From: Marinobacter sp. MDS2
GTDB taxonomy: Bacteria; Pseudomonadota; Gammaproteobacteria; Pseudomonadales; Oleiphilaceae
Assembly: GCF_030718085.1 (NCBI RefSeq)
Contig: NZ_JAVAJF010000002.1
Span: 477,011-541,010, forward strand
Reading direction: 5' to 3'
DNA: 64,000 nt
Shown here: positions 11,198 to 30,463 of the stretch, piece after piece
Layout: each line of letters starts with the position of its first letter
Numbering within the stretch: position 1 is the first letter of the stretch
The notes under the pieces: generated by a model
The model's input: the letters and a program-made list of their open reading frames with translations, nothing else
What the model was told of the DNA's origin: nothing
Databases searched by the model: none
Position numbers and translations under genes: made by a program

Positions 11198-12073
11198 TCA
11201 GAGAATCAGGTCTTTCAGCGTATGCCGATTGGCCAAAGCCAATTGATGAGCTTTCGGGTTAGCCCGGGTTTGTGCGGGCGTACCAATCTTTAGTGCAATG
11301 GCCATATACATTACTAGGGGCGAACGCACCCATATTCGTAGCGTATTGTCGGGCTCCATAGCGTAGTCATCAGCCACCAGTTGTTGTTGCTCCGGCTGCA
11401 GCGCGGGATTAGGTGTCAGTACCATCTCAACTTCTTTAAACCATTCAATATCATTGGACGGTTTCCCCAACTCCAGGCGTTCGCCTTCCAAATCGGGCAC
11501 ATCGACGAACCGGTGTAGCATGAAGTCCTTGAAAACCCGGTCTCGCTCGCAAAATGCCCGGACATGCCAGCGACCGTCGGCAAACACCAGTGTGTGAGGG
11601 GCAATCAGCCGCTCTTCGCCACAAGGGTTGGCGAAGGATCGATAACACACATTGATACGCTGGCCCTCACGAACTGCCTGCAAGATGACGCGAACGATCT
11701 CGGGATTAACGGGGCGAGTTAGGGATGGCAATCTGTCTATTGGGGCTCGCCCTGTTTGCAGGGCGTAGAAATAGTTGTTGTGTATGGATTCACTGTGCAG
11801 CAAATTCAGATACTCATGTACCTCACCGTGACTGAAACTGGGCCGAAACTGCGGTTCGAGGACGTAGCCCCTTGTCTGGCTGCAGTGACGGATATTATCT
11901 GGTACCGCTCTTTGGTATGACTTGATGATTTCTGAAGCTTTGCTTCGGCCAATGGCAAACGCCACTTTAAGATGGTTAGTCGTGAGACGCCCTTCCCAAA
12001 GGGCAACAACTTCGATCAGGTGGAACTGAGCAACGCGCTCCCAGGTAAGTGCTGTGTCGATGTTTGCATCCAT
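11198..12073 (-). CDS. BrxR/CapW-like WYL-domain regulator
   Basis: About 291 residues: an N-terminal winged helix-turn-helix (FHLIEVVALWEGRLTTNHL, then GRSKASEIIKSYQRAVP), a WYL sensor domain (QRINVCYRSFA, APHTLVFADGRWHVRAFCE, FKDFMLHRF) and a C-terminal WCX region. This is the arrangement of BrxR and CapW, repressors of BREX and CBASS defence operons. The frame is open to 12151, but starting at MDANIDTALTWERV (12073) matches the family and leaves a perfect dyad (12103-12119) upstream instead of inside the gene. It is divergent from the Argonaute gene and most likely represses it. Confidence 0.83.
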   Translation of the reverse strand: MDANIDTALTWERVAQFHLIEVVALWEGRLTTNHLKVAFAIGRSKASEIIKSYQRAVPDNIRHCSQTRGYVLEPQFRPSFSHGEVHEYLNLLHSESIHNNYFYALQTGRAPIDRLPSLTRPVNPEIVRVILQAVREGQRINVCYRSFANPCGEERLIAPHTLVFADGRWHVRAFCERDRVFKDFMLHRFVDVPDLEGERLELGKPSNDIEWFKEVEMVLTPNPALQPEQQQLVADDYAMEPDNTLRIWVRSPLVMYMAIALKIGTPAQTRANPKAHQLALANRHTLKDLIL

Positions 12074-12102
12074 ATAAACACACGGGTCTGCTTGAAATTT
12101 GG

Positions 12103-12119
12103 ACAGATTGTAAATCTGT
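12103..12119. promoter_or_regulatory. Dyad operator between WYL regulator and Argonaute
   Basis: ACAGATT-GTA-AATCTGT, a perfect 7-bp inverted repeat with a 3-bp spacer, lies 30 bp upstream of the regulator start and about 70 bp upstream of the Argonaute start. Position between divergent genes suggests autoregulation and control of the Argonaute by the BrxR/CapW-like protein. Confidence 0.65.
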
Positions 12120-12190
12120 TCAGTATCGCATGATCGGCAGCGCTTCGGCATCCTCAGGACGACTAGTTAATTCGAAAGGGATGCACTGAT

Positions 12191-15232: not shown

Positions 15233-15415
15233 TTAGCGAACCCACCAGGAAATAAAAAACACCGGCGCAACCACCAGAATCGGAATCTTTAACCACACCG
15301 GGAAGGCTTCCCATTCCTCCCAACCGACACCGTGGTCATTGAAATAGCTGATGCACAGCATCGACACCACAACCCAGAGCACCGCACCCAACGCAGCTAA
15401 AATCAGAATCATCAC
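15233..15415 (-). CDS. Small membrane protein, two transmembrane segments
   Basis: 60 residues with two hydrophobic helices (LILAALGAVLWVVVSMLCI and WLKIPILVVAPVFFISWWV) joined by an acidic, Trp-rich loop. Its start overlaps the stop of the next gene upstream (15412-15837) by 4 bp, so the two form an operon behind the 15877 palindrome. No family recognised. Confidence 0.55.
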   Translation of the reverse strand: MMILILAALGAVLWVVVSMLCISYFNDHGVGWEEWEAFPVWLKIPILVVAPVFFISWWVR

Positions 15416-15837
15416 GCACCTCGCTGGATGTTAAAGACAAACGTCATCGCATTGGCTTTGCTGATGGTTAGCACGTGAATGCTGGCGGCATCTTCGTGCA
15501 TCTCCAGATTGAGCAACTCCAGCACAGAATTCGAATAGCGAAGCTCCTCAAACCATCGAGCATAGAAATGCTGAACGGCTGCGGAAAGATCCTCTGACTG
15601 GGTGATGAGCTCGCAGCGCAATAGGGCATCGGGGCAATCGGGCTGCTCGCGAATGAATGATTGCTCGCTGAACACAGGGTCGTTGTGGATCAGGGCATTA
15701 AAGATGTCGTGCTGGAACCCCAGCATGGTGGAGTCGAAATCGTAGGTTTTTGGGGTAAACCCATGTTCTAGCAGGAGGGCGGCAAATTTGTGTTTGTTCA
15801 GGGCAGGGTTCCTTGTGTCGTTGGCAGAGTTGGCCAT
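15412..15837 (-). CDS. Unknown cytoplasmic protein, first gene of a two-gene operon
   Basis: About 141 residues starting MANSANDTRNPALN (an upstream start at 15870 would run close to the operator). The product is acidic with no clear motif and no membrane segment. It is divergent from the WYL regulator gene at 15932, and the shared 95-bp gap holds one of the four palindromes. It was likely controlled by that regulator together with the small membrane protein that follows. Confidence 0.6.
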   Translation of the reverse strand: MANSANDTRNPALNKHKFAALLLEHGFTPKTYDFDSTMLGFQHDIFNALIHNDPVFSEQSFIREQPDCPDALLRCELITQSEDLSAAVQHFYARWFEELRYSNSVLELLNLEMHEDAASIHVLTISKANAMTFVFNIQRGA

Positions 15838-15876
15838 TGGCTTTACTTGACCAGCACAAGAATCTAGCATGACGTA

Positions 15877-15893
15877 GCGTCAGAATGTGTCGC
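15877..15893. promoter_or_regulatory. Palindromic operator, copy 1 of 4
   Basis: GCGTCA-GAATG-TGTCGC, one mismatch from GCGACA-N5-TGTCGC. It is centred between the divergent starts at 15837 and 15932, about 40 bp from each. Confidence 0.75.
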
Positions 15894-15931
15894 TTAAGCT
15901 GTCGACTTCGAGAAAAGACAAAGATCCCGCC

Positions 15932-16939
15932 ATGTCCAGCACTGCCGTTCGCTACCTCACCATGCTCCGGATGGTGCCCCGGTACCCAAGATCCATCACC
16001 ACCACCGAACTGGCGAGCCGCCTGGAAGAGCAGGGCTTTTCGGTAACCATGCGCTCGATCCAGCGGGATCTGGAAAAGCTGAGTGCAGATTTCCCTTTGT
16101 TGGTTGATGAAAACTCCCGGCCTTACCGCTGGTCGTTTGATCGCAATGCGACCATGGACATCATACCGGCGCTGGATCTGCCGGCAGCACTCACGTTTGA
16201 GCTGGCGAAGGCCTACCTCTCACCAATGCTGCCCCCAAGGGCGCTGTCCCACTTAAAGCCTCACTTCGATGAAGCCCACCGCACGCTGTTGCGTGAAAAG
16301 AACCCCCTGGGCCAATGGCCAGACCGGGTCAGGGTGATCAATCGGGGGTTAGGAGGTGCGCGCCCGCCTGTTGATGTCGATGTTCTGGAAGCGGTCACCG
16401 AAGCCTTGCTCCGGGAATACCAGTGCAAACTTACGTATCAGGCTCGCAGCTGGCCGGAGCCGGAAGAGATTGTGGTGCATCCATTCGGGCTTATCTTCCG
16501 GGACCCGAACGTGTACCTGATTGGTACCATCGAAGGCAGGGAAGGGGTTCGCCAGCTGGTGTTGCACAGGGCCACGGCCGGTGAGGTAGTGGAAGAGCTC
16601 ATCGAGCGCCCGGAAGATTTTGATCTGGATTTGTACATCCACTCCGGCGCCATGGGTATTCTGAAATCCGATGAGCCGGTGTATCTGAAGTTACGCTGCG
16701 ACAAACCGGTGCTGAACCACCTGATCGAATCCCCACTGGGATTTGATCAGATCACCACCGAGATTGATGACCAGACCTTCGAAATGGCCGTCACCGTGGG
16801 CGACACCCAGGACTTGCGCTGGTGGCTTACCGCTCAGGCGGTGCATTGCGATATTCTGGAACCGGCTTGGTTGCGGGATGAGATTGAAGACACGCTCAAG
16901 CAGGGGCTGAAGCGGACGCGGCAGGCCAAGTCTTGTTAG
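15932..16939 (+). CDS. WYL-domain transcriptional regulator
   Basis: About 335 residues: N-terminal HTH (SSTAVRYLTMLRMVPRYP, TTELASRLEEQGFSVTMRSIQRDLEKLS), then the WYL sensor (QCKLTYQARSW, IVVHPFGLIFRDPNVYLIG, VLHRATAGEVVEE) and a WCX tail. WYL domains sense small ligands, often nucleotide-like or nucleic-acid signals. ATG 15932 is preferred over the earlier 15887 start because the latter would overlap the operator. The gene is convergent with the 5'-nucleotidase gene and their stops overlap by 4 bp. It is the best candidate to bind the four GCGACA-N5-TGTCGC sites. Confidence 0.88.
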   Translation: MSSTAVRYLTMLRMVPRYPRSITTTELASRLEEQGFSVTMRSIQRDLEKLSADFPLLVDENSRPYRWSFDRNATMDIIPALDLPAALTFELAKAYLSPMLPPRALSHLKPHFDEAHRTLLREKNPLGQWPDRVRVINRGLGGARPPVDVDVLEAVTEALLREYQCKLTYQARSWPEPEEIVVHPFGLIFRDPNVYLIGTIEGREGVRQLVLHRATAGEVVEELIERPEDFDLDLYIHSGAMGILKSDEPVYLKLRCDKPVLNHLIESPLGFDQITTEIDDQTFEMAVTVGDTQDLRWWLTAQAVHCDILEPAWLRDEIEDTLKQGLKRTRQAKSC

Positions 16940-17883
16940 CGACTATTCGTGTCGCTTTGAGCATGATTCGCCACCCCAAACGGAATATGTACCATCGGAA
17001 CATTCCCCGCATCCGACTGCAGATGGCTGCGCTGGTCATCAAAGAACATATGGGGCTTCAGCACATTCAAAATGCGGTCTTTCTTCATACCGCCCAGGAA
17101 AAACACCTCATTGGCATCCACGCCCCAGTGTTCCAGGGTGGTAATCACACGCTCGTGGGCAGGGGCGCTGCGGGCGGTGACGATGGCGGTGCGCAAGATG
17201 CGCTGGTAGTCCGGATCGGCTTTCTGGGCCTCATCTTCCAGTTGCTGCAGCAGTGACAGCTTTCTGAATAGGTTAGCCAGTGGGCCAGGGCTGTGGGGAA
17301 TGCGGGCCTTGGAGGTTTCGTGGGCATGGAATGCTTCCAGCTCACCACCTTTGTAAACCCGCTCTGACGCATCATCGGCAATCACCCCATCGAAGTCGAA
17401 AGCAATACGCAGCTCGAAATCGTCCTCGTCATCCACCACAGGGGACGGCAGCACCGTGCCTGCCGGGTATTTGTAGTCGATGGCTTTTAGAACATCCTGC
17501 TCATTGGACGACAGGAACAGCGACGCATTGAACGCCGGAATATAGGGGTAGGGTGACTTGCCCTCCAGAAACGCCGCCCGGGAGATATCCAGCCCATGGT
17601 ACTCAATCGACCGAAACACTCGTTTACCGGTGATTGAGGAGTTGCGGGACAGCAGTACCACTTCCACCGGCGAGGTCTCCGGAAACCGCTTGTTGATGTT
17701 CAGAAACCGCCGAACAAACGGAAACGCCACCCCCTTGTCCAGCGGGACCTCCAGATGCTCTTCCTGGTAATCCCGGTAGGCAATGGCACCCTGCTCCTGA
17801 AACACCCTGTCGGACTCAGACAGGTCAAACAGAGCGCTGGAAGCTACGGCGATAACGAGCTTTTCTTCTATGGGGTGGGGCAT
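16936..17883 (-). CDS. HAD-fold 5'-nucleotidase (NT5-type, PF06189-like)
   Basis: About 315 residues. The core motif IAFDFDGVIADDASE supplies the DxD nucleophile pair of HAD phosphatases. Further family blocks are EVVLLSRNSSITGKRVF in the N-terminal half, TARSAPAHERVI and the C-terminal FLGGMKKDRILNVLKP followed by FFDDQ. The family removes phosphate from (deoxy)nucleoside monophosphates. Start MPHPIEEK (17883) is preferred to the upstream 17919 start. An operator copy lies 53 bp upstream. Next to a WYL regulator and a SLOG protein, it suggests control of a nucleotide-type signal or pool. Confidence 0.85.
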   Translation of the reverse strand: MPHPIEEKLVIAVASSALFDLSESDRVFQEQGAIAYRDYQEEHLEVPLDKGVAFPFVRRFLNINKRFPETSPVEVVLLSRNSSITGKRVFRSIEYHGLDISRAAFLEGKSPYPYIPAFNASLFLSSNEQDVLKAIDYKYPAGTVLPSPVVDDEDDFELRIAFDFDGVIADDASERVYKGGELEAFHAHETSKARIPHSPGPLANLFRKLSLLQQLEDEAQKADPDYQRILRTAIVTARSAPAHERVITTLEHWGVDANEVFFLGGMKKDRILNVLKPHMFFDDQRSHLQSDAGNVPMVHIPFGVANHAQSDTNSR

Positions 17884-17935
17884 GGTGGTGTACTCTGGAA
17901 CTCGGTGATCAGTGACCAAACACTATCATCTGGCT

Positions 17936-17952
17936 GCGACACTTTTTGTCGC
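17936..17952. promoter_or_regulatory. Palindromic operator, copy 2 of 4
   Basis: GCGACA-CTTTT-TGTCGC, a perfect 6-bp inverted repeat with 5-bp spacer, 53 bp upstream of the 5'-nucleotidase start and about 140 bp upstream of the divergent unknown gene at 18091. Confidence 0.8.
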
Positions 17953-18090
17953 TTGCAAACCGTACCATGAAAAGTAAGTTGAAATGTTCCCGGGCGGCAG
18001 CCGTCGGTTCGCTCACATGAAAGAGGCTTTGCCTCGGGTTGAGGCCTTCCATGATCGCACCGAAGTAGTTTATGGACTAGGAGAGAATTA

Positions 18091-18669
18091 ATGGATGATC
18101 TAGAGCGGGTGCTTGAGCCCGAGTACATAGCGAAGCTTACTGTCGAGAACGCTTCGTACATTAGAAGCTACCCCCATATGCTCGAATATTTCCACGACAT
18201 ACCCCAGTTGACGGCGAAGGATGTCGTTGTCGGTGCACACATGGTCTACGGATGGATGCCAACCATAGTGCACCTCAATAAGAATGGCGCAAAGCTGGAA
18301 GATGTCATCCCAATTCTGCAATCCGCGAAGGACGGCGACGTTGCCCTCAACACGAACGAGCTTGAAGTGGTGAAGAAGTGTGTCAACAACTCTATAGTTG
18401 GAGCTTCTAAACTGCTTCACTTTATCAACCCCGAGCAGTATCCGATCTGGGATTCAAAGATCTTTCGATTTGCTTATCCTGCCACCGAGCCGCACCCGAA
18501 TCGGGTCAACAATGTAAAAACTTATACCGTTTACCGGGAAAGACTGCTGAAGCTAATGCATCATCCCCGATTCCTGGAGTTGCACTCGCACATCAATCAA
18601 GAGCTGGGGTATAGCGTCTCCGGGCTCAGAGCGCTCGAACTAGCGATGTTCGTCGGCGGAACTAAGTAA
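18091..18669 (+). CDS. Unknown protein, conserved-looking
   Basis: 192 residues, soluble, mixed helices. Distinct segments are VVVGAHMVYGWMPTI, SKLLHFINPEQYPIWDSKI and SGLRALELAMFV. The last two recall helical domains near DNA-glycosylase-like folds, but I do not recognise the family. A good ribosome site (AGGAGA) precedes ATG 18091. It is divergent from the 5'-nucleotidase gene, with operator copy 2 between them, so it may belong to the WYL regulon. It could have been inserted with the nucleotidase gene (see the fragment at 18750). Confidence 0.6.
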   Translation: MDDLERVLEPEYIAKLTVENASYIRSYPHMLEYFHDIPQLTAKDVVVGAHMVYGWMPTIVHLNKNGAKLEDVIPILQSAKDGDVALNTNELEVVKKCVNNSIVGASKLLHFINPEQYPIWDSKIFRFAYPATEPHPNRVNNVKTYTVYRERLLKLMHHPRFLELHSHINQELGYSVSGLRALELAMFVGGTK

Positions 18670-18749
18670 ACGCACTACTAAGAACTTGAGGGAAGTGGAG
18701 TGCACTGTCTGGTGCCCCCCCCCTGAGCTGCGCGGGCTCAGGGGAAGAG

Positions 18750-18785
18750 AGCAGGGGCTGAGGCGGACCCGAAGGACCGGTAACG
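18750..18785 (+). repeat. Vestige of a WYL-gene 3' end
   Basis: AGCAGGGGCTGA followed by GCGGAC and further matches resembles the last codons of the WYL gene (16899-16931) and would encode Q-G-L-R-R-T-R in the same frame order as Q-G-L-K-R-T-R there. It is preceded by a 9-bp GC hairpin (18720-18744). It suggests that an older WYL gene once ended here, directly before the SLOG gene. Confidence 0.55.
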
Positions 18786-18791
18786 CATGAG

Positions 18792-19136
18792 TCATTCCCC
18801 CACGGTTTCAACAATCACCGTTTTACCTTTTGCCCGGGCATAATTCAGGGCGGACGCGGTACCCCGGGATTTGCCATCCCAGAAGGCGATCACCAAATCA
18901 GCTGTATCAACGATGGTACGGTTGCGAATCGGGCCGGCCCCACGGCCGTATTGTTTCCAGTCGGGTTTGATCACGGTAATAGGCAGCTTATTTTCTCGGG
19001 CCAGTTGCTCCGCCAGAGCATCCGCGCCTTTTGCACCACCAGAAATGATATGTGCAGGTAGCCAGGGTTGAAGCACACGCTCCAGGCGGTCGTAGTCATT
19101 AAAGTGGCGAGAACCAATAACGGCGATCTTGCGCAT
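18792..19136 (-). CDS. YspA-type SLOG protein (DUF2493)
   Basis: 114 residues with a complete SLOG fold: IAVIGSRHFNDYD at the N-terminus, the ligand loop SGGAKGADALAEQLA, and PIRNRTIVDTADLVIAFWDG followed by KSRGTASALNYA. SLOG proteins bind or process nucleotides and their derivatives and occur as sensors or effectors in defence systems. ATG 19136 has a GGAG ribosome site at the right distance and is preferred over TTG 19148. Operator copy 3 lies 50 bp upstream. Same strand as the small gene at 19194. Confidence 0.85.
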   Translation of the reverse strand: MRKIAVIGSRHFNDYDRLERVLQPWLPAHIISGGAKGADALAEQLARENKLPITVIKPDWKQYGRGAGPIRNRTIVDTADLVIAFWDGKSRGTASALNYARAKGKTVIVETVGE

Positions 19137-19185
19137 GATGAGCTCCAAAGGCTTGTGTATTGGAGCGAAAGCTTAAGGTGTAGTG

Positions 19186-19202
19186 GCGACAAATTATGTC
19201 GC
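19186..19202. promoter_or_regulatory. Palindromic operator, copy 3 of 4
   Basis: GCGACA-AATTA-TGTCGC (with one more G:C pair outside), 50 bp upstream of the SLOG start. It overlaps the last codons and stop of the upstream gene, which gives the SLOG gene its own regulated promoter. Confidence 0.8.
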
Positions 19203-19538
19203 CTTGGCGTTAACTCTCCGCAACGCTTCTTCCCGGGCAACATCCCAGCTGGAATCGTCGGTACGCAATCCGTTAGCTCCCAGCGGTGGTACCCCGCGCT
19301 CTTTGCGTCGGGCGTTTACCTTCTCGGTGTAGTCCAAACTCATGGGATTAATACCACGGCGACGGTCATTGGCGTCTGCGATGGAATCCATCATGGCATC
19401 GTATTCTTCCGGGAAGAGTTCGTAGTGAACATCGTGGACCAGCTTGTTGAGCTCATCCAGCTTCCGGCACTCCTCCCCGGATAGACCCTCGCGTTCTGCG
19501 GTGCGCTTCTTGAGCATTTCTTTTTCGGCACGATTCAT
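19194..19538 (-). CDS. Small charged unknown protein
   Basis: 114 residues beginning MNRAEKEMLKKRTAEREG (preceded by a GGGAG ribosome site); the frame is open to 19592 but that start would overlap the operator. Highly charged, helical, no membrane segment, no recognised family. It is followed by the SLOG gene and has its own copy of the palindrome 48 bp upstream, so it belongs to the same regulon. Confidence 0.6.
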   Translation of the reverse strand: MNRAEKEMLKKRTAEREGLSGEECRKLDELNKLVHDVHYELFPEEYDAMMDSIADANDRRRGINPMSLDYTEKVNARRKERGVPPLGANGLRTDDSSWDVAREEALRRVNAKAT

Positions 19539-19585
19539 CGTTTTCTCCCTGTTGATTTCAACTCCGATAATTCTAGAGCAGAGAG

Positions 19586-19602
19586 GCGACATTCAATGTC
19601 GC
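19586..19602. promoter_or_regulatory. Palindromic operator, copy 4 of 4
   Basis: GCGACA-TTCAA-TGTCGC, perfect arms, 48 bp upstream of the small charged protein's start codon. Confidence 0.8.
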
Positions 19603-19826
19603 AGCGCCCCGTAAGAATAGCGAGGGGTCAAGGTTCTATGCCTCGACGATCCGAAAGATCACGTGATTGGCGAAAAACACTTTGCAACATGTAAACAATA
19701 GTTACGTTTGTTGGAATTGGCTCCAACTTCAAGCAGTATTGCTTATACTCGGAATGCAACGCAGCCTAACTTTTCTGAACTTTGCGGGCTGGCCGCGCAG
19801 AGAGATTTACCAAACAAGGACGAAAG

Positions 19827-20750
19827 ATGTACGACCTGATCGGTGATATTCACGGCCACGCCACTGAACTCAAAGCCCTCCTCACCAAGATGGATTACCG
19901 CGAAACAGACGGCGTGTGGCAGCACCCCGAGCGAAAGGTCATTTTCCTGGGTGACTTTGTAGACCGCGGCCCGGAACAGGTAGAAACCGTCACCATTGCC
20001 CGAAACATGGTCGAGAAGGGCCACGCTCTGGCGGTCATGGGCAACCACGAATTCAACGCAGTAGCCTGGGCTACGGAAGACCCGCAAAACCCTGGTGAAC
20101 ATCTTCGCCCCCATATCGAAAAAAACCTGAAGCAGCACAGAGCCTTTCTGGAGCAAGTAGGTGAGGGGAGCGAACTGCACCACAGCATGATCAAGTGGTT
20201 CAAAACCTTGCCGGTGTACCTGGACTTGCCGGAATTTCGAGTAGTACACGCCTGTTGGCACCCAGAGCATCTTGCGGCCATAGCCAAGCACACCGATAAA
20301 GAAAACCGGTTACTTCCTGGCACCTGGGAGGAGGCAAGCCGAAAGGGCTCAGAGGCCTATGAGGCGATTGAAACTCTTCTCAAAGGGTTGGAGATTCCGC
20401 TTCCGGGCGACCATCACTTCTTCGACAAAGATAAGAATAAGCGAACCAACATCCGCACTGAATGGTGGCGCGAGGGTGAGCTGACCTATCGCGATCTTGC
20501 CATGGTACCGGAAGAGGTCATCGATAAAATTCCCCATGAACCAGTAGCTTCTCACGTTTTACCCGGTTACGACGGTGAGAAGCCGCTGTTTGTGGGGCAT
20601 TACTGGATGAAAGGGGAGCCGGCTCCATTGAATGAGCGCATTGCTTGCCTGGATTACAGCGTTGCCGGTGGGCCCGGCGGAAAATTGTGCGCATATCGGT
20701 TCGATGGAGCACAAAGGTTGAAAGCAAAGTGTTTTACCTGGGTCCAGTAA
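19827..20750 (+). CDS. PP2A-like metallophosphoesterase
   Basis: 307 residues with the calcineurin-type metal motifs in order: LIGDIHGHATEL, FLGDFVDRGPEQVE, VMGNHEFNAVAW, and later VVHACWHPE and FVGHYWM. Such enzymes hydrolyse phosphoproteins or bis-nucleoside polyphosphates (PrpE/ApaH-like). ATG 19827 begins the family sequence; the longer frame to 19782 does not. It lies about 115 bp before druH on the same strand, so it could be read with the Druantia genes, but a functional link is not established. Confidence 0.85.
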   Translation: MYDLIGDIHGHATELKALLTKMDYRETDGVWQHPERKVIFLGDFVDRGPEQVETVTIARNMVEKGHALAVMGNHEFNAVAWATEDPQNPGEHLRPHIEKNLKQHRAFLEQVGEGSELHHSMIKWFKTLPVYLDLPEFRVVHACWHPEHLAAIAKHTDKENRLLPGTWEEASRKGSEAYEAIETLLKGLEIPLPGDHHFFDKDKNKRTNIRTEWWREGELTYRDLAMVPEEVIDKIPHEPVASHVLPGYDGEKPLFVGHYWMKGEPAPLNERIACLDYSVAGGPGGKLCAYRFDGAQRLKAKCFTWVQ

Positions 20751-20866
20751 CAGTAAGGCGTAGGTTATAAAAATTTTTTGCTGATTTAGTTGGCGAAAGC
20801 AGTAGCTATGGTCAATGAAATCGTCCAAAGCAAATGAAGAAGAAATGCTGTAAAAAGGACTTTCAA

Positions 20867-23800
20867 ATGGATATGGGTATGAGAAGTAAGTCAAAAGCCT
20901 GGGTGAATGAGTTTTTGTTCATTAGAGGTATGATTTCGGGGCCAGATGGAAGTCCGTTATACCTATACCACGTGACTGATGAAGAATTTGCCTATCTTCC
21001 GACTTTATTGAGACAGACTTTGCCCGATATCGAGAGTCCCGTGCATTCGGTATATTGGTCGGCTGCTTTCTGTCTTTTCGTTGCTGAAAAATATCGCAGA
21101 GAATACGACGGCACCAACCTCGGATGGTCTTGGGAGGGATTCGAGAAACCGCTTTCAATCAAGCTTCCAAGTTTGCGTCATTCAGAAATTGTCAGAAAAG
21201 GGCTGGAGTTTTGGCGACGTCCAATTCGCCTTAGAACCAATGGCCATGATTATCTTGGCTCTCTGTTTGATGAAGGGGGATTACCCTGGCGCCTGATTCA
21301 GAGTGACACGCACGGCTTCGGTCGGGCTGTTCGTGGGACGATTTCTAACTATTATCGAGTCCAGCAGTTAGGCGGCGACATAGCTTCGACTGTGTCGAAT
21401 TACGCCCAGTATTTTCCGCAGACATTCAGGACCCATGAAAAATATCTATTGATCGCATCCATTGTTGAGTGGCTGATGGGAATTGCAGAAGCCCATCCCA
21501 TTGCATCAATTGAAGATCCGACCGATTACCTTGACGAGCATGCACCCGACTGGCGCAAGCTTTCCCCTCTCCCTGTGAGTGAGGGTAATGCGCGCAATCT
21601 CATCAATGAATGGCTTAAAGATGCTAGCAAGAGTCGGTCTGAGAAAAAGCGGATTGAAGCAGACGAGAAAAACTTTACCTGTGATCACTGGTTAAAAGGC
21701 ACCTATGAAAATTGGGCGATCGAAACAGAGGTATTTCTGCCTTCAGAACTTTCGATTTCGCTTGAAGGTGCCCCCATTCAGAGCACCAGGGTTGAGGTCG
21801 CTTTCTACGAAGGCGATGAACTGCTAAGGCGATCGGGAATTGTTCATGGCAAAGTGAATGACGATCGTTCACAGATTACGTTAAAGATTAACAACCGAGC
21901 AATTCGAGTTGGCCGGGTGAATCCGGAGCTCCCTTTGACCGTTCAACTTCTATCGAACGGACAGCGAATCGATGTCTTTTATTTCGAGGGAAGCGAAGTC
22001 GATTTTGCATCATTGCCACTAATTTTCATTGAGGACGGAGAGCAGTTAAAACTAGCTTCAACAGCGTCTACAACTCTGGCGGCTTCATATGCGTTGGTGA
22101 GAGTGCCCCCGGCGATGAGCTCTGAGGATTTATCCAAGAGTGAGCTGTTAGGAAGTGATCAATTGGGCGCAGAGTGGATCCGCGTATCGGAAGACATCAC
22201 CTTCGTAGGTGCGGATTCGCGAGTGGTTGTGCGGTTTGACCCAAATGCAGTAATCACAAAGCCAACTCTGGCCGGAACGGTGTCGTTATACGACACACTT
22301 CCCAATCTTGTCTACAGAGGGTGGCCAAACCTCAGGGCTACTGGAAATGAGGATAATCAGGACATCAGTCTGTTCGCAAACGGTAAACCCCTGGAATTCG
22401 ATTATCAAAAAAATGAAGTTGGCAGTTTCAGTCTGAGCGCCGTTGCGAGGGGAGGAGAAACCGTTCTTCGCCGAAAGATTGGTGTTATACCCAAAGATCT
22501 GCGAGTAATTTCGGTTCCCGCTTCCACTCACAGTTCCGCCAAAATCATTCTGAGGAGTGGGAGGAAGCTTGCGGTTTGTATACTTGATGATTCTATGCGG
22601 GCCGAAACTCAATTAATAGACGATGGTTGTGAGATAACCCTGGAGCCGATTGTACGAGGGCAGGTTCCGCAAAAGGTTAGCGTTGCGCTCTCTGATGGCC
22701 TTAATCCTGGTGAACCAGTGATTTTGAGATTACCTTATCCAAGGACTGGGGCTCAGCTTTATGACGATGTGGGCACTGAAGTTAAAGGTGGCTTGATATC
22801 CCTCGATCAGCTTATAGGGATGTCTATGACGCTGACACCAAAGCCCGACACGAGAGAACAATTCTTTGTTTCTCTTGAGCTTGTGTGTCCGCAACTTCCC
22901 AATTTTCGTCGTTATTATCCTTTCACAGTGAATACCCAGGCGCAGAGAATTAGCCTCTATGCGTTCGAGGAAGATATTCAACAGATGTTGGGAACAACGT
23001 CCAATCAAGACGCATTTGTTCGCATTAGCGTCGAAACAGATCGCATCCTCAAACAGCTAAATATCGTTCGTTACAATGCCCGTCTTGAGGGCCCGTCATC
23101 GACAGGAAGGCTCGAAGTAGTTACAGATACTCTATGTGAATCAGAGAACTCCGTCAGAGTATCTGGTATGCGACTCGACGACCCCCGGGCACTTCCAGTT
23201 GAGGTACCAGAGAGGGTATCCGAGGGCGTGGGAATGGGGGTATTCGAAATCCCACCGAAAATGATGAAAAACGGTCCTTGGTTACTATTTCCCCCGGCTG
23301 AATCCAGCCTTAAGTTCCGACCAACGGTCTGGGTTACGGAGGACTCTGCTAACACATCCGAATCTCCTGTAAACACCCTGCATTCGGCCGCCAAAGCATT
23401 TCACCCAGTGCACAATCCTAATGCTTTTGATCAAGTCATCTCGGCGATGGCCCGGGATTTCTCTCACAGTGGTTGGGATTATCTTCGGGCCCTTAAAGAG
23501 CAATACAGCGCTTTGCCCTTGTCGGCATTCGAGAGTTGGAAGGCTTTGGCGAACAATACTTCAGCGATAGCAGCGGCAGTTTTTCGGCTAGAGTTTGATC
23601 CTGCGTTTTGTAGGCGGTTGAGTAACGAGCTTGCAGTGATCTGGGAAACGGTGAATGTGCAGACTTGGATCAATGTTCGGGCTGGTCAGAGCGATTTTCT
23701 TGTCGACCAGGGCATCCCCGAAGAATTAGCTGAAAAACTCGTAGAGGATCGGATAAGCAGCGTCGCTACCGCAATTCCCTGCTTTATGCATCTATCGAAC

Positions 23801-24187
23801 TATTTGCGAGAGCCAAAGCACGTGAACTTGGAACAGGTTCCTTACGTTTTTGCGAAGATATGCTTTGAAGATCTGCGACGTAATCATGCGGACGACCAGA
23901 GATGGCCCGAATGGTTCAAGGTGGAGCTCGCAAACTGGGTTCACCAGCAGAACTTCCCAGCGGAAATAACGACACTCCCCGATGTTGGTTTTTCGAGGGC
24001 AGTGGCCTACTTGCCTGTATTTATGGCGGCGGTGACTGCAGGAAAAGCGAGGTTTACGGATGTTTCAGAATCGCTTCCGGAACTGAGGTTTGCTGTTCGG
24101 GTTCTTTCGGACTTCGACCGTGACGCTTGGTATGAACCTACCTATTCACTGGTACTCTCAAATCTTTTGCTCGAAACAGAAGAATAA
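20867..24187 (+). CDS. druH: Druantia type III protein DruH (STY4851/ECs_5259-like)
   Basis: About 1,106 residues, no nuclease or ATPase motif visible. Size, order and pairing with a 2,088-residue DUF1998 helicase 9 bp downstream match Druantia type III, a two-gene anti-phage system (DruH, DruE). The N-terminal segment WVNEFLFIRGMISGPDGSPLYLYHVTDEEF and the long beta-rich centre fit the STY4851/ECs_5259 family. The start at 20867 has AAGGA at good spacing; an in-frame ATG lies at 20834. DruH function is unknown. Assignment by recognition, not by alignment. Confidence 0.75.
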   Translation: MDMGMRSKSKAWVNEFLFIRGMISGPDGSPLYLYHVTDEEFAYLPTLLRQTLPDIESPVHSVYWSAAFCLFVAEKYRREYDGTNLGWSWEGFEKPLSIKLPSLRHSEIVRKGLEFWRRPIRLRTNGHDYLGSLFDEGGLPWRLIQSDTHGFGRAVRGTISNYYRVQQLGGDIASTVSNYAQYFPQTFRTHEKYLLIASIVEWLMGIAEAHPIASIEDPTDYLDEHAPDWRKLSPLPVSEGNARNLINEWLKDASKSRSEKKRIEADEKNFTCDHWLKGTYENWAIETEVFLPSELSISLEGAPIQSTRVEVAFYEGDELLRRSGIVHGKVNDDRSQITLKINNRAIRVGRVNPELPLTVQLLSNGQRIDVFYFEGSEVDFASLPLIFIEDGEQLKLASTASTTLAASYALVRVPPAMSSEDLSKSELLGSDQLGAEWIRVSEDITFVGADSRVVVRFDPNAVITKPTLAGTVSLYDTLPNLVYRGWPNLRATGNEDNQDISLFANGKPLEFDYQKNEVGSFSLSAVARGGETVLRRKIGVIPKDLRVISVPASTHSSAKIILRSGRKLAVCILDDSMRAETQLIDDGCEITLEPIVRGQVPQKVSVALSDGLNPGEPVILRLPYPRTGAQLYDDVGTEVKGGLISLDQLIGMSMTLTPKPDTREQFFVSLELVCPQLPNFRRYYPFTVNTQAQRISLYAFEEDIQQMLGTTSNQDAFVRISVETDRILKQLNIVRYNARLEGPSSTGRLEVVTDTLCESENSVRVSGMRLDDPRALPVEVPERVSEGVGMGVFEIPPKMMKNGPWLLFPPAESSLKFRPTVWVTEDSANTSESPVNTLHSAAKAFHPVHNPNAFDQVISAMARDFSHSGWDYLRALKEQYSALPLSAFESWKALANNTSAIAAAVFRLEFDPAFCRRLSNELAVIWETVNVQTWINVRAGQSDFLVDQGIPEELAEKLVEDRISSVATAIPCFMHLSNYLREPKHVNLEQVPYVFAKICFEDLRRNHADDQRWPEWFKVELANWVHQQNFPAEITTLPDVGFSRAVAYLPVFMAAVTAGKARFTDVSESLPELRFAVRVLSDFDRDAWYEPTYSLVLSNLLLETEE

Positions 24188-24196
24188 GGAATCAAA

Positions 24197-27100
24197 ATGA
24201 GTGGTTATTTCAAGGATCTCATTAACCAATCACTAGAGCGTACCCGGGAGTCCACGCTCAGCATCTTGGGCTTGGCTGACCCCGGATTGCGAGCCCATTT
24301 GGCAAAGCAAATGAGCAACCAGTTGGGCGAGGAGGGCTGTTTTCTCGCGCCACCGGTCTTCGAGCACACGTTTGGATGGGAGCCGGGCAATATTACCTTT
24401 AAGGCCCTGGAGGGCGAACTGCTCAGCAGTGAAGTTATCTCTGCTTTGTCCGATGCGCCCAACGAAAACTATCGGTTTGACCCGAATATAAAACCGTATA
24501 CGCATCAGTTGACTGCCTGGCGAACTTTGCTCGCTGAAAAACCACAGTCTGCGGTAATCACCACCGGGACAGGGTCAGGTAAAACCGAGTGCTTCATGAT
24601 CCCGATCTTGCAGGATCTCGTCAGTGAATATCAGCAGACAAGGAAGCCACTTCAAGGCGTGCGAGCCCTGTTCCTTTATCCTCTTAATGCGCTGATCAAC
24701 TCTCAACGGGAACGTCTTGACGCCTGGACTCGGCCATTCGATCAGAACATCAGGTTCTGTCTTTACAATGGCAACACTAAAGAATCTAGAGCCTCCGTTC
24801 GGAAAGAACAAAAAGAGGCTCCCAATCAAACCCTCTCACGGGAGGAGCTGAGGGAGCATCCGTCGCCGATTCTAATGACTAATGCGACGATGCTTGAGTA
24901 TATGCTCGTCCGTCAGGTGGATGATCCAATCATTCGAAAGTCACGGGAAGCGCAATCTCTTCGCTGGATTGTCCTCGACGAAGCCCACACCTACATCGGA
25001 TCTCAAGCCGCTGAGCTCTCTCTGCTGCTTCGTCGTGTAGTCGAAGCCTTTGGCCGCGAAGCCTCAGATATCCGGTTTGTCGCCACATCTGCGACCATCG
25101 CTGATGAGAAGGCTGAAGAAAGGTTGAGAGAATACCTTGCAGGTCTGGCTGGTGTTCCTTTGCACCAGGTTGTAGTGATCGGTGGTCAGCGTCAGGTTCC
25201 GGAAATTCAGTTTGACGGCGATGACAGCGGCATGTCTTTGACACAGTTAAAGTCGATCGAGGAGGGAAGCACAACCTCGGCCAAGAGATTCGACGCCCTT
25301 TGCAAATCCAGAACGGCACAGCTGATACGGAATACGGTAGTCAACTCACCGAAGCCCGTCAGCCTTAACGATCTCTCCGGCTCTGTGGGGCCTCTGTTGG
25401 TAAGTAAGGACGCTGTTGAGCAACAGCAGGAGCTGTTGGAATGGTTGGATCTGCTGACCGATACCAAGCCGTCGGATAAACAGGAACCTTTCCTCAAATT
25501 ACGGGCCCACTTGTTTCAACGCATGCTTCATGGACTCTGGAGCTGCGTAAACCCCGGCTGCTCCGCAAAATCCGAGGATCTCAAAGACTGGCCATTCGGC
25601 CAGGTTTATGTTCAGCAGCGTGGGAAATGTGACTGTGGTTCGCCAATATACGAAGTCGGCTTTTGTGACGACTGCAAGACACCTCACCTGACGGCTGAGC
25701 ATGCTCATCCGTATCTGCGTCAGGCCAGCCCCTATGTCGGTGATGAGTTCTCACTGCAGGAAGATGACTCGGATGACAGCGGGCTTTCGGACAGCGCCGG
25801 GAGCTCATTGAAAGGGCGTACCGTCATTGCGCCCAAGCCCCACGAAGCCTTCGTTTCTGAAGATCTGGATCTGGACACGGCAGAGCTTGGGAAGCTGGAC
25901 GCCGAAAACAGCATCACGATTTCACAGGCGGACGAACATGAATCGATCTGCGTGAACTGTGGTAGCGCCGGCAAAACGCCAGGCGGCTTTCTGCGCAAGT
26001 CGTATCTGGGATCACCTTTCTACGTCAGTAACGCCGTGCCAACGGTTCTGGAGTTTTGTCCTGACCCTTCCCGCGAAGATTGCGATGGGGAATCACCCGA
26101 ATCCCTGCCGGGGCGTGGCCGCAAGCTGATCACCTTTACCGATAGCCGCCAGGGCACTGCTCGTATGGCGGTGCGTATGCAGCAGGAAGCGGAACGCTCG
26201 CGTCTGAGAGGGTTAGTATTTCAGATACTGAGAAATAAGCAGGCAAAGGCTGACGCCGGCCCTAAAAATGCTCCGACGGCTAGCTATGAAGAATTAATAC
26301 AGCAAGCCGAGCAGCTTGAGAAAATGGGAATGCACGCTGCTGCTTCGGGGGTAAGGTCTGAAGCTGAGAAACTCAATAGTGGGGGGAGTTCAGAAGACCG
26401 TTTGGAGGTTCCCTGGCCTGAACTGGTCGAGGATCTAGCCGCCACGAACGACCTCAAATACTCAATTCTGGATTACAACCGCTACGCCAACCCACAGTTG
26501 TTCAAAGGCAATGAGGGCAGCTATTCCATGGCGCGAGTTCTCCTCTTGCGCGAATTCGCCCGCCGGCCCAAAAACCAGAACAGCACGGAAACGCTGGGTC
26601 TCGTGTCTGTTGGCTACAAAGGCCTGGAGCAGATAACACACACACCCGACTTCTGGACCGAAACTCAGGCTCCGTCGGCAGATGGCAAAAGCGAATCCCG
26701 GCTAACCCTGGACGACTGGAAAGATTTTCTGAAAGTTGCCTTGGACTTCCACGTAAGGGAAAACACTTTTCTCCGGTTTGGCGAAACGGAGCGTTCATGG
26801 ATGGGCGCGCGGTTCGCGCCGAAAGAGCTATACGCTCCGGGCAGCGATGTCAGTGGCACCAGAGACAAGGCGTGGCCTCAGTTTCAAAAGGGTTCGCAGT
26901 CGCGCTTGGTCAAGGTGCTTTCTCTCGGAACAGGCTTGAACACCGAGCTGGAATCGCAACGAAACAAGCTGAACGGTTGGCTCAAGGCCGCCTGGCAAGC
27001 ATTGGTAAAATCACAGATTCTGCAAACTCAGGGTGGGGGTTATGCGCTTTCCCGCGAAACACTGACCTTTTCTCTGCCCAAGTCGGCTTGGGTATGCCCG

Positions 27101-30100
27101 GTTACAAACCGGCTAATCGACACTACATTCCGTGGGTTAACTCCCTACTTGCCCAACAAGGCCGAAGTAGAGAAGTATCGATGCACAAGAATTGATATGC
27201 CTGAATTCACCTCGCTTGCCCCGGAAGGGGAGACGGAAGGTGTGCTCCGGTCTATCCGAAACCGCGTTGCGGCAAATGACGTTGTTGCGTCTCTTCGTGA
27301 GCAAAACCTCTGGACGGACATTTCAGATCGAACCGCTGAGGGCGGCTTTTACTATCGCACCGCCGAACACTCCGCACAGCAAGCTGCAGAGCGCCTACAG
27401 AGATACGAGGATGATTTCAAAAAAGGCAAAATCAACGTTCTCAATTGTTCCACCACCATGGAGATGGGCGTTGATATTGGCGGTATTTCGGCTGTAGTCA
27501 TGAATAATGTGCCGCCCCACCCAGCCAACTACCTCCAGCGAGCGGGTCGCGCCGGCCGGCGTAGTGAGCCGAGAGCCGTTGCCTACACTCTATGTAAACC
27601 AGATCCCCACAACACCCGGGCCTTCCAGAATCCTCAGTGGCCCTGGGTAACGGCCATTCCAGCTCCGGTGATTACTCTCAGTGCGGCGCCGCTGGTACAA
27701 CGGCACGTGAATTCTTTCCTGCTAGCGAACTTCCTCAAGTCCGAAACGGACAGTGAGGATGATCGCACCCGATTAAATGTTCATTGGTTCTTCGGCGGTA
27801 ATCCCTCGGTGTGTGAAAGGTTTGTCGATTGGCTGGATACACTGGCCGCCGGATCAGCAGAAAACAACGTGGTGAAAGGAGTTGGCCGGATCACTCGAGA
27901 AAATACCGCGTTATCCGCCACATCCTTTGCCGTGTTGGCAGCCGACTGTAAAGAAGCGATCCAACGATTGTCATCATCCTGGCGGGAAGAATACCGTCGC
28001 CTCAATGAACGGCATCGCGAAGCGTCGGATGACGCATACAAAAAAGCGTTGGAACTCGAGAAAACGCGCCACGAAGAGGAGTACTTACTGCGCGACCTGG
28101 CGGCCCGCGCTTTCCTGCCGGGGTATGGCTTTCCCACAGACGTAGTGAACCTCAATACCTATAACGTCGAAGATTTCATCAATAAGACCGCCCGCAAACA
28201 GGAGAAGTCCCGCGAGGACAACATCTTTACTTACAAGGAAAAACCATCAAGGGGCCTACCGATCGCCATCCGCGAATATGCTCCTGGAGCCCAGGTTGTC
28301 ATCGATGGACGTGTATACCGCTCTGCCGGTGTGACCCTGTATTCCTATTACGACAGCGCGCAGGGTGGACCACAAAAGTTTGATCTGGCCTGGAGTTGTC
28401 AGAATTGCGGTGCACATGGCTACCGAGAGTATGCCTATGTGAACAGTGATGAGTTGTCATGCACACAGTGCCACAGCATGATCAACCCGAAATACGTCAA
28501 AAGGGTTCTCAGACCGGCTGGCTTCACCACGGATTTCTACGATTCGACGAGTAACGACGTTACTTCTCAGAAATTCATCCCCGTTGAAAAGCCCCGGATC
28601 AGCGTAGATGAGAATGTGATTTCACTGCCTGACGAACGCTGCGGTTTCATCCGGTTCGGAGACAAAGGCCATGTCTTCCACCATTCGGGCGGTGAAAACG
28701 GAACCGGATACGCTGTTTGTCTGAGCTGCGGACGCGCAGATTCTATGTCTGCCAACCACGAGAAACCAAAAGACCTTCAGCCTGACAAGTTTCACCGCCC
28801 CATTGGAGGAAATGCGGGTAGCCACAAAGAGAAAGATTGTTCGGGCGAGCAGGTTATGGCTGGGATCTACCTTGGGTACCAGGCTCAAACTGATGTCCTG
28901 GAACTCATACTCAAGAGTCCGATTACCGGTGAATGGATACCGGCCTCAGAAGACGGCCGGGTCATTGCCACAACCCTGGCAGTCGCGCTGAGGGATACCA
29001 TTGCAGACCAGCTCGGCATCGCGACCACTGAAATGGGCTTCGGGGTCCGGCAAGACAAAGACCTCGATACAGGAGCAACCCGTTTCGTCATCCAGGTATA
29101 CGATGACGTCGCCGGTGGCGCGGGCTTTGTTCTGACGGGATTAGAGAATCTGGCAGAACTGATCGAAAAGATGCTCAGAAAGCTTGAGTGCCCAGCCAAC
29201 TGCGACAATGTCTGTGCGGCCTGCCTTGCCAGCAAAGACAGCCGGGTGGAATTCGACGAGCTGAACCGTAAGGCAGCACTGGAATGGGTCGCTCACAGCG
29301 GTATCAGAGACCATCTATGTTTACCTGAACCTTTCGCTTCTGTTCCCGGCGCAGCCTACTGGCCGTATGATCCTGAGCGGTTTGTCCGGCATTGGATTAA
29401 CAAAGGCGCGAAAGCTGTCTCATTGCGTCTAAAAGGAGACCCCAGCGAATGGGATCTCGGAAACCCTGATTTTCGCCGGAAACTCATGGGATGGCGGGCT
29501 ATCGATGGCTTGCGAGTAACTCTGATCTTGCCGAAGGGCGCCACGTTGAGTGAGGAGATCAAACAGGAGCTCGCCAATCTCGGCCGATTCGGTATCAGCG
29601 TCTCAGAGACAGGCGAGGATCACCCAAATCCAGATATAAGAATGCCGCTTCAGTTCGAGTTTGAAAAGGACGGGCTCGTTACTCTGATCACCAACAGCAT
29701 CAACGCCCAGAGTCCCGGTAAAAACTGGCTGAGTGGCGATGATCAGGCCTTGTGGGTTTATTCACATCAGGAGCCTACTTTCTCAGCCAGCACCATAGAT
29801 ATGGCAGGTTGGTCGGCTCAGCCTAGCGGCGCCGCGGTGTTAGAGCTGACCACTGAACTGAACGGCTCCATTCAGGATTTGGCCCGAAACTTCTGGAGCA
29901 TACTCAAGCAAAAGGCTCCGAGTTATGCGGAAGCCATTGATCAAGAAAAAATTGTTTCGCTGCAGTACGAGGATCGCTATCTCAAGTCTCCCTGGGCGGT
30001 AGTAATGCTCGCCAATATTTTGAAAGCGGTGGAAATAGGCGATGAAACATCATTGTCTGTTATCACCATGCCTGGCGATGGCCGTCGGGATAGTCGAATG

Positions 30101-30463
30101 GCGTGGGACGATTGGGTAAACGCCGAAACGCAGCGCGTCGTCTCGGGTGCATTTCTGAGGGCCGCTCTAGGGGCCAAACAGGTAGACTTTCAAGTCAATA
30201 ATGATAGGCGTGAACTTACCCACCGTCGGATGCTTAGCATTGGATTGGCCTCGGGGCGTACGATCAAGTTGGCTTTCGATCAGGGCATGGGCTACTGGGA
30301 AATGAAAGCCTTCCGCCACGATCTGAAATATTTCAATTTTGATCTGGGCCTTGAAGCACAAGTACAAAGAATGTTGGAGCTTGATAAAGAGGGTCGGCTA
30401 GTCAATGCCGGTGGCTGGGCCACCGATATTGCGGTTTACGAAGACAGTAGTATGGATCATTAA
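24197..30463 (+). CDS. druE: Druantia helicase DruE (DEAD/DEAH, DUF1998)
   Basis: A 2,088-residue superfamily 2 helicase. Walker A TGTGSGKTE is at about residue 123, the DEAH box WIVLDEAHTY near 259 and the SAT motif FVATSATIADEK near 300. The second RecA domain shows STTMEMGVDIGG and QRAGRAGRR. Several Cys pairs (CVNCGSAG, CQNCGAHG) indicate zinc ribbons, and the C-terminal DUF1998 has DDVAGGAGFV and CDNVCAACLAS at about residues 1635-1680. This layout is typical of DruE, the common Druantia subunit. It starts 9 bp after druH. A terminator lies 45 bp downstream. Confidence 0.83.
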   Translation: MSGYFKDLINQSLERTRESTLSILGLADPGLRAHLAKQMSNQLGEEGCFLAPPVFEHTFGWEPGNITFKALEGELLSSEVISALSDAPNENYRFDPNIKPYTHQLTAWRTLLAEKPQSAVITTGTGSGKTECFMIPILQDLVSEYQQTRKPLQGVRALFLYPLNALINSQRERLDAWTRPFDQNIRFCLYNGNTKESRASVRKEQKEAPNQTLSREELREHPSPILMTNATMLEYMLVRQVDDPIIRKSREAQSLRWIVLDEAHTYIGSQAAELSLLLRRVVEAFGREASDIRFVATSATIADEKAEERLREYLAGLAGVPLHQVVVIGGQRQVPEIQFDGDDSGMSLTQLKSIEEGSTTSAKRFDALCKSRTAQLIRNTVVNSPKPVSLNDLSGSVGPLLVSKDAVEQQQELLEWLDLLTDTKPSDKQEPFLKLRAHLFQRMLHGLWSCVNPGCSAKSEDLKDWPFGQVYVQQRGKCDCGSPIYEVGFCDDCKTPHLTAEHAHPYLRQASPYVGDEFSLQEDDSDDSGLSDSAGSSLKGRTVIAPKPHEAFVSEDLDLDTAELGKLDAENSITISQADEHESICVNCGSAGKTPGGFLRKSYLGSPFYVSNAVPTVLEFCPDPSREDCDGESPESLPGRGRKLITFTDSRQGTARMAVRMQQEAERSRLRGLVFQILRNKQAKADAGPKNAPTASYEELIQQAEQLEKMGMHAAASGVRSEAEKLNSGGSSEDRLEVPWPELVEDLAATNDLKYSILDYNRYANPQLFKGNEGSYSMARVLLLREFARRPKNQNSTETLGLVSVGYKGLEQITHTPDFWTETQAPSADGKSESRLTLDDWKDFLKVALDFHVRENTFLRFGETERSWMGARFAPKELYAPGSDVSGTRDKAWPQFQKGSQSRLVKVLSLGTGLNTELESQRNKLNGWLKAAWQALVKSQILQTQGGGYALSRETLTFSLPKSAWVCPVTNRLIDTTFRGLTPYLPNKAEVEKYRCTRIDMPEFTSLAPEGETEGVLRSIRNRVAANDVVASLREQNLWTDISDRTAEGGFYYRTAEHSAQQAAERLQRYEDDFKKGKINVLNCSTTMEMGVDIGGISAVVMNNVPPHPANYLQRAGRAGRRSEPRAVAYTLCKPDPHNTRAFQNPQWPWVTAIPAPVITLSAAPLVQRHVNSFLLANFLKSETDSEDDRTRLNVHWFFGGNPSVCERFVDWLDTLAAGSAENNVVKGVGRITRENTALSATSFAVLAADCKEAIQRLSSSWREEYRRLNERHREASDDAYKKALELEKTRHEEEYLLRDLAARAFLPGYGFPTDVVNLNTYNVEDFINKTARKQEKSREDNIFTYKEKPSRGLPIAIREYAPGAQVVIDGRVYRSAGVTLYSYYDSAQGGPQKFDLAWSCQNCGAHGYREYAYVNSDELSCTQCHSMINPKYVKRVLRPAGFTTDFYDSTSNDVTSQKFIPVEKPRISVDENVISLPDERCGFIRFGDKGHVFHHSGGENGTGYAVCLSCGRADSMSANHEKPKDLQPDKFHRPIGGNAGSHKEKDCSGEQVMAGIYLGYQAQTDVLELILKSPITGEWIPASEDGRVIATTLAVALRDTIADQLGIATTEMGFGVRQDKDLDTGATRFVIQVYDDVAGGAGFVLTGLENLAELIEKMLRKLECPANCDNVCAACLASKDSRVEFDELNRKAALEWVAHSGIRDHLCLPEPFASVPGAAYWPYDPERFVRHWINKGAKAVSLRLKGDPSEWDLGNPDFRRKLMGWRAIDGLRVTLILPKGATLSEEIKQELANLGRFGISVSETGEDHPNPDIRMPLQFEFEKDGLVTLITNSINAQSPGKNWLSGDDQALWVYSHQEPTFSASTIDMAGWSAQPSGAAVLELTTELNGSIQDLARNFWSILKQKAPSYAEAIDQEKIVSLQYEDRYLKSPWAVVMLANILKAVEIGDETSLSVITMPGDGRRDSRMAWDDWVNAETQRVVSGAFLRAALGAKQVDFQVNNDRRELTHRRMLSIGLASGRTIKLAFDQGMGYWEMKAFRHDLKYFNFDLGLEAQVQRMLELDKEGRLVNAGGWATDIAVYEDSSMDH

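Follow-up and report, generated by a model that had tools for sequence, protein, structure and literature searches.

Operators around a WYL gene in Marinobacter sp. MDS2

The 64,000-nucleotide stretch of Marinobacter sp. MDS2 analysed here (the window) contains a block in which the gene of a WYL-domain regulator is surrounded by copies of one palindrome, GCGACA-N5-TGTCGC, referred to below as the operator. The regulator, a protein of 335 amino acids (aa) encoded on the forward strand (15932..16939), consists of a winged helix-turn-helix (wHTH), linker helices, a WYL domain (Pfam, 3.4e-12) and a WCX domain (4.6e-12); its ATG start at 15932 is the choice of a simple gene caller, and a GTG at 15887 is an alternative opening of the reading frame. 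Operator 1 (15877..15893, one mismatch) lies between this gene and UnkA, a 141-aa protein without a Pfam family (15412..15837, reverse strand), which is the first gene of a two-gene operon with orf60 (59-60 aa; 15233..15412, reverse strand). Operator 2 (17936..17952, exact) would serve both NT5, a 5′-nucleotidase of 315 aa (16936..17883, reverse strand; PF06189, 3.7e-126), and UnkB, a protein of 192 aa with no Pfam family over the cut-off (18091..18669, forward strand), whose start is 138 base pairs (bp) from the operator. Operator 3 (19186..19202, exact) would serve SLOG, a YspA-type protein of 114 aa (18792..19136, reverse strand; PF10686, 2.8e-14), and operator 4 (19586..19602, exact) would serve UnkC, a small charged protein of 114 aa without a Pfam family (19194..19538, reverse strand), together with the operon of MPE, a calcineurin-like phosphoesterase of 307 aa (19827..20750, forward strand; PF00149, 2.1e-10). 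NT5 also matches the model of the PADLOC candidate system PDC-S08 (2.4e-139), its defence role being putative.

An initial annotation of this DNA had reported four palindromes with a 5-bp spacer, placed shortly upstream of start codons. All four were recovered, at 38-52 bp from the nearest starts (UnkA 39 bp, WYL 38 bp from the start at 15932, NT5 52 bp, SLOG 49 bp and UnkC 47 bp), and a fifth copy with one mismatch (16939..16955), which the annotation had missed, lies inside the 3′ end of NT5 without a good −10 box. The fifth copy looks like a relic of rearrangement. In relative L035, whose WYL protein is 97% identical, the corresponding copy (L035:9019) sits 49 bp before a SLOG gene that there follows the nucleotidase gene, which suggests that a unit of the island takes its operator along when it moves and that relics stay behind.

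The search of the whole genome that the annotation had proposed agrees with a local regulon, since the exact palindrome occurs three times in 3.45 Mb and every copy lies within the block. At one mismatch or fewer there are 14 places in the genome, namely five in the block, one in a resolvase gene (31010) and eight elsewhere. The place in the resolvase gene carries the operator plus a −10 box with one mismatch (31010-31042, forward strand); because it falls within coding sequence it was rejected as a real site and is probably a chance match. Dinucleotide shuffling makes the palindrome mildly unusual, the seven window matches at up to two mismatches being reached by 2 of 100 shuffles; the motif owes its strength not to this statistic but to the presence of three exact copies, to the way they cluster and to the relatives described below.

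Promoter geometry behind the operator

The shared operator of the initial annotation stands; what had been missed is a −10 box at a fixed distance from it, the activator-like geometry that results, and the defence operons that lie behind it. After removal of duplicates the target promoters numbered 62 (from 68 rows), and one was too short for a gap of 10 bp, leaving 61. In 59 of these the sequence NAnnnT stands exactly 10 bp past the operator, and in 41 the box reads TAnnnT. The runner-up gap has 14 NAnnnT boxes, and 2000 shuffles give at most 14 at any gap. A conserved TTGACA-like −35 box was looked for at 16-18 bp in the target promoters and was not found, the operator occupying its place.

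Within the window, the boxes at this distance are TAGATT of UnkA (15861..15866, reverse strand), TAGTGT of NT5 (17920..17925, reverse strand), TACCAT of UnkB (17963..17968, forward strand), TAAGCT of SLOG (19170..19175, reverse strand), TAGAAT of UnkC (19570..19575, reverse strand) and, in the direction of MPE, AAGAAT (19613..19618, forward strand). When operator, gap and −10 box are taken as one composite, NT5, UnkB, SLOG and UnkC match exactly, and UnkA and MPE match with one mismatch. Operator 2 thus also faces the divergent UnkB, which the annotation had named as perhaps controlled, and operator 4 also points towards the metallophosphatase and the Druantia genes that follow it.

The arrangement of operator and −10 box at a gap of 10 bp was found in 0 of 10 promoters of WYL genes. 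In another set of ten WYL-gene promoters a predicted promoter lies just upstream and the operator lies over the predicted start site, although the statistics are weak: a search for −35 boxes gave a mean best score of 8.3 versus 7.0 in shuffles, which is weak evidence, and TTTACT-N17-TAGCAT is present in five of the ten (the window and four relatives), four of the five being near-identical. The window copy of this predicted promoter (15842..15870, forward strand) is a consensus match only, and operator 1 would cover its start site.

The composite forms a 33-bp signature that can be searched for. Across the family, 32 exact places were found in 19 of 163 genomes, and a reversed control gave 0 matches. 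Such a signature predicts members of the regulon, among them genes of unassigned function that are promising candidates for novel defence roles. Within the genome of the present strain a genome-wide regulon was not found by this means, the composite at up to three mismatches giving 33+41 matches against 39+48 for the reversed control.

Relatives and the modules behind the operator

A search of 100 Marinobacter genomes gave 25 with the WYL gene (E 1e-20 or better), and in 21 of these the relative is full-length and close. Forty stretches of 10-20 kb were fetched, 30 around WYL hits and 10 around places of the motif (L065-L074, two of which also have diverged WYL genes), and genes were called in them with a simple in-house caller. 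As the annotation had expected of homologous loci, the motif is retained: a site with at most one mismatch occurs in 27 of the 31 Marinobacter WYL stretches (the window and the 30), and it is absent from L037, L054, L063 and L064. All 23 exact sites and 43 of 49 one-mismatch sites in these 31 stretches are intergenic, even though coding sequence makes up about 82% of the 30 fetched ones. Exact palindromes number 30 in the 21 WYL genomes and 24 in the 75 genomes without any WYL hit.

The same families, unrelated to one another, recur downstream of the operators, and the spacing is particular to each: an AAA ATPase of about 703 aa (43 bp, 7/7 loci), SLOG (49 bp, 3/3), UnkC (46-49 bp, 7/9), an 85-aa protein (38-45 bp, 8/8) and a 157-aa protein (49-52 bp, 4/4), in addition to a 383-aa PcfJ-like protein, a 215-aa protein, UnkA and ADP-ribosylglycohydrolases. 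A Pfam scan of the 85-aa, 215-aa, UnkA, UnkB and UnkC proteins gave no family over the cut-off. It might be thought that the shared site is just an upstream region duplicated when cassettes were copied, with no regulatory meaning, as the island is a mosaic whose units move with their upstream regions. However, the downstream genes and the flanks are unrelated, and the operator with its −10 box alone is kept, also where the WYL proteins are 28-42% identical; this explanation is therefore the least credible of those considered.

The initial annotation had further proposed that SLOG and the nucleotidase make or remove a small nucleotide ligand sensed by the WYL domain. Both domains are real by Pfam and here share the operator. 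On the other hand, the phylogenetic profile, which the annotation had advised, finds UnkC in 14 of the 21 genomes with a full-length close WYL gene versus 3 of the 79 others and shows NT5 to be optional (13/21 versus 24/79). SLOG stands under the operator in three examined loci, and in other Proteobacteria the operator and the WYL gene persist without NT5 and SLOG. As NT5 and SLOG are optional cassettes, the nucleotide-signal model is rejected as the principal explanation. Furthermore, the nearest characterised relatives of the regulator sense single-stranded DNA (ssDNA), namely DriD of Caulobacter crescentus, an ssDNA-triggered WYL activator (PMC12340889, a preprint), and PafBC, which is activated by ssDNA (PMC11804915). 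A nucleotide signal is thus very unlikely.

Several of the units under the operator are of interest in themselves. An AAA protein of about 703 aa with two AAA domains, which has PADLOC likeness to IetA and TRIP13, recurs together with a 317-aa OGFr_N protein (L044:8790-11873, L041 and L047), and the pair is a candidate for an undescribed defence system. The 157-162 aa family (L055:7358-7831, L050:11749-12237) has an HExxH motif, read by eye, and weakly resembles a family of metallopeptidase toxins (0.0012, which does not reach the cut-off). In L065 and L074, two adjacent diverged WYL-like genes and an ADP-ribosylglycohydrolase lie behind the same operator; the one that was scanned, L065:15001-15990, gave a weak Pfam WYL match (0.01).

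In Marinobacter the operator often heads an operon of the 85-aa protein, the 215-aa protein and MPE; the window lacks the first two genes, and MPE is the last gene of the operon. When distant loci are included, 18 of 23 MPE genes have an operator with at most one mismatch and NAnnnT at the gap of 10 bp, no more than 1.7 kb upstream and in the same orientation; three others have an operator with two mismatches and two have none. L159, which is the same DNA as L050, was dropped from the 23 and adds nothing to the 19 cases in which the following gene could be called. In 17 of those 19 the gene downstream of MPE is on the same strand (p 0.0004), and for 12 of these, one of the first two genes after MPE belongs to a defence system, although several loci are related and the counts are not independent. 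Druantia III follows MPE in the window, L040, L050, L053 and L240; a DrmD-like helicase in L035 (where the first gene is not a defence gene and the second is DrmD-like), L038 and L044; Zorya in L051 and L059 (by PADLOC) and in L057 (by 75% and 84% identity to L051, and not by the scan); and a type I methyltransferase in L065. The window system consists of DruH (20834..24187; PADLOC DruH3), which follows MPE on the same, forward strand, and DruE (24197..30463, forward strand; DruE3), and the presence of both assigns it to Druantia type III. No promoter- or terminator-like site was found in the window around the gap between MPE and DruH (20650-20950), and L053 has an extra exact operator, with AACAAT at the gap of 10 bp, about 170 bp before DruH. 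Since the unit of operator and MPE is followed in relatives by Zorya, a DrmD-like helicase or a type I methyltransferase, the operator appears to be a common switch that turns on whichever defence module has been placed downstream by exchange.

A near-identical block is carried by plasmid pMAQU02 of M. nauticus VT8 (L240), in the order SRAP, orf60, UnkA, operator, WYL, UnkC, operator, MPE, DruH and DruE, the last being broken by an insertion sequence (IS) element. This plasmid is typed as conjugative, which implies that the hotspot can be mobile.

Relatives of the WYL protein with about 30-65% identity occur in Halospina, Vreelandella, Thioalkalivibrio, Desulfuromonas, Geobacter, Stenotrophomonas, Burkholderiales and others, and relatives with 28-37% identity on plasmids of other genera. 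WYL matches were found in 18 plasmid and 3 phage records, of which 11 plasmid records and one phage record were fetched; phages were dismissed as carriers, since 50,697 records gave three weak matches. Among 36 distant loci (28-65% identity, one phage record included), 18 have the operator, with one mismatch or none, in the 400 bp before the WYL gene, eight of them exactly, and no such operator was found within that distance in the other 18. Distant operators that had not been selected for a −10 box confirm the spacing, as 30 of 39 (from 30 loci, the one-mismatch site of phage record L251 being left out) have NAnnnT at the gap of 10 bp on at least one side, compared with 14 at the next best gap. 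The exact composite was found at 22 places in 390 genomes of the order (control 2), 17 places in 370 genomes of the class (control 3) and 11 places in 397 genomes of the phylum (control 1), each list including the four places of the window; several of these sites precede genes of unassigned function or no evident target gene. In other families of the class the composite precedes genes of the recC type (two loci, PF04257), ruvB and a radical-SAM/helix-hairpin-helix gene (L263, L271, L265, L260).

These scans bear on whether the palindrome and its −10 box are recognised by another regulator or an alternative sigma factor, the WYL gene being merely linked to them on the island. A strong WYL member (E 1e-40 or better) was found in 24 of 35 composite-positive genomes versus 1 of 45 composite-negative ones. 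The positives exclude 12 composite-positive Marinobacter genomes whose islands had already been examined, and the negatives were hand-picked from the searched genomes. The alignment behind the WYL profile contains rows from four of the positives (G198, G889, G1171 and G080), without which the figures are 20/31 versus 1/45; other named loci of this alignment might overlap the searched genomes, although a comparison of the DNA at the composite sites found no identical ones. Some observations would suit another recogniser: 11 of the 35 positives have no strong WYL match, and in G089, where a WYL relative was not found, the composite precedes an sbcD-like gene. However, the association persists across divergent WYL lineages, and in 15 of the 18 genomes with both on one contig the WYL gene is no more than 12.8 kb from the composite (a limit set post hoc; the distance list omitted G331, where the two are about 488 kb apart). 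In addition, the half-site core and spacing are the same as those of the DriD site (PMC12340889), and recognition by a factor other than the WYL protein is accordingly improbable.

The sbcD-like gene stands behind the operator and its −10 box in two Marinobacter genomes, G080 and G089 (L108 and L111). The name SbcD is our assumption, Pfam giving Metallophos for SbcD, and the names SbcC and RuvA are presumed in the same way.

The remainder of the island was named with Pfam and PADLOC. It includes an integrase (2174), followed by genes for a UmuD-like peptidase (6528), an LPD1-domain protein (6968) and a UmuC-type polymerase (7726), which lie in a row on the forward strand (6528-9000); relatives L046, L049, L050 and L062 have a trio of the same gene sizes (147-249-428 aa) elsewhere on the island. 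An HNH gene (9005), an Argonaute gene (12191) and an SRAP gene (14558) complete this part, and a second WYL gene (317 aa; 11198-12151, reverse strand; PF13280, 4.6e-13) directly adjoins the Argonaute gene. Altogether, three WYL matches were found in the genome.

A probable DriD-type activator compared with known WYL regulators

What is seen in the DNA is an operator that is conserved with the WYL family, stands at the place of a −35 box, and lies 10 bp before the −10 boxes of UnkA-orf60, NT5, UnkB, SLOG and UnkC (TAnnnT) and of MPE (AAGAAT). That regulator and operator belong together is nearly certain, and the WYL protein would be the factor that binds; the annotation's concept of a local regulon, next to defence genes and under a single WYL regulator whose operator is shared, is supported to this extent. 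By sequence profile and by fold the regulator is closer to DriD than to BrxR and CapW: the profile E-values are 1e-19 to 3e-20 for DriD and PafBC and 9e-4 or weaker for BrxR and CapW. BrxR and CapW belong to the same superfamily without being the nearest members. In structural Z-score CapW ties with PafBC, and DriD is 19% identical to the window protein over the aligned fold. We therefore favour, with a probability of about 0.7, the reading that the WYL protein is a DriD-type activator, that the palindrome is its binding site, and that it is probably fired by ssDNA and controls a defence hotspot. Activation of the targets by this protein is a well-favoured part of the reading, and ssDNA or DNA damage as the signal a reasonably likely one. 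In this model, ssDNA arising from DNA damage or phage attack would bind the WYL domains; the dimer would then bind the operator, keep RNA polymerase at a promoter that lacks a −35 box, and turn the units on. Transcription may read through from MPE into Druantia III, and the WYL protein may limit its own synthesis through the operator over its predicted start site.

The opposite sign of control has also to be considered, that is, a repressor of the BrxR/CapW type that blocks the promoters of the island and is lifted by ssDNA on infection. BrxR and CapW are indeed WYL repressors at phage-defence loci with palindromic sites, BrxR having two sites in its island (PMC9122601, PMC9122588), and such a regulator is said to hold transcription down until it binds ssDNA (PMC13373217). 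An operator at about −39 to −23 could also block polymerase, and the one over the predicted start site of the WYL gene looks repressive. However, the sites of CapW overlap the −10 box (PMC9122588), whereas the target operators here stop short of it by a constant 10 bp, and both sequence and fold are nearer to DriD. Moreover, with no conserved −35 box, the target promoters are expected to be weak on their own. A repressor is thus unlikely, and the activator is preferred.

Little is known of how defence islands are turned on, and BrxR and CapW, the WYL regulators of defence considered here, are repressors. One activator that turns on several defence units and units of unassigned function through a standard cassette, with modules that can be exchanged, would, if confirmed, represent a different logic, and the connection between DNA damage and phage defence would become directly testable in a marine genus. 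It is tempting to go further and regard a damage-sensing DriD-type activator as the common on-switch of an exchangeable defence hotspot, with operator, 10 bp and TAnnnT as the standard cassette for many units; as the same pair occurs across beta-, gamma- and delta-type proteobacteria before recC-, ruvB- and sbcD-like genes, it would be an SOS-like positive regulon joining DNA repair and phage defence. The chances for and against this wider proposal seem to us evenly balanced. The type of regulator is already known from DriD; no account of an activator of this type serving as the common switch of a defence hotspot with exchangeable modules was found in the accessible portions of the open-licence literature searched. 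According to a review, a WYL gene next to DdmDE in Vibrio is under study elsewhere (PMC12409362).

Among known systems, CapW, CapH+CapP and CapK+CapS are named as damage-responsive immune regulators in a 2026 paper and are described there as repressor-based (PMC13373217). CapH+CapP and CapK+CapS resemble the present case in that damage or ssDNA signals raise the expression of an immune operon, and differ in that they belong to other protein families and act by relief of repression instead of activation (PMC13373217). PafBC and SiwR of mycobacteria are WYL activators that work through a −26 motif or a region located before the −10 box (PMC11804915, PMC10693628), and the SiwR promoter has a 19-bp imperfect palindrome in this position (PMC10693628). 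SiwR controls adjacent genes in one operon (PMC10693628), and PafBC is a heterodimer that runs the mycobacterial damage response (PMC11804915); here a single WYL gene accompanies a symmetric palindrome, yet the second WYL gene lies at 11198-12151. For DriD, the order of wHTH, helical linker, WYL and WCX and the fold agree; the core CGAC-N7-GTCG of the printed DriD consensus is contained in GCGACA-N5-TGTCGC; the distance from site to −10 box is fixed and the −35 box poor or absent, the printed promoters of driD and didA having a gap of 10 bp and that of bapE not; and the site lies between the regulator gene and a divergent operon, with DNA-repair genes among the targets (PMC12340889). The difference lies in the regulon: DriD targets are scattered damage genes such as didA, bapE, recJ and dnaG (PMC12340889), whereas those of the window regulator, with its putative ssDNA response, are clustered and are mostly cassettes of unassigned or defence-linked function in a mobile hotspot.

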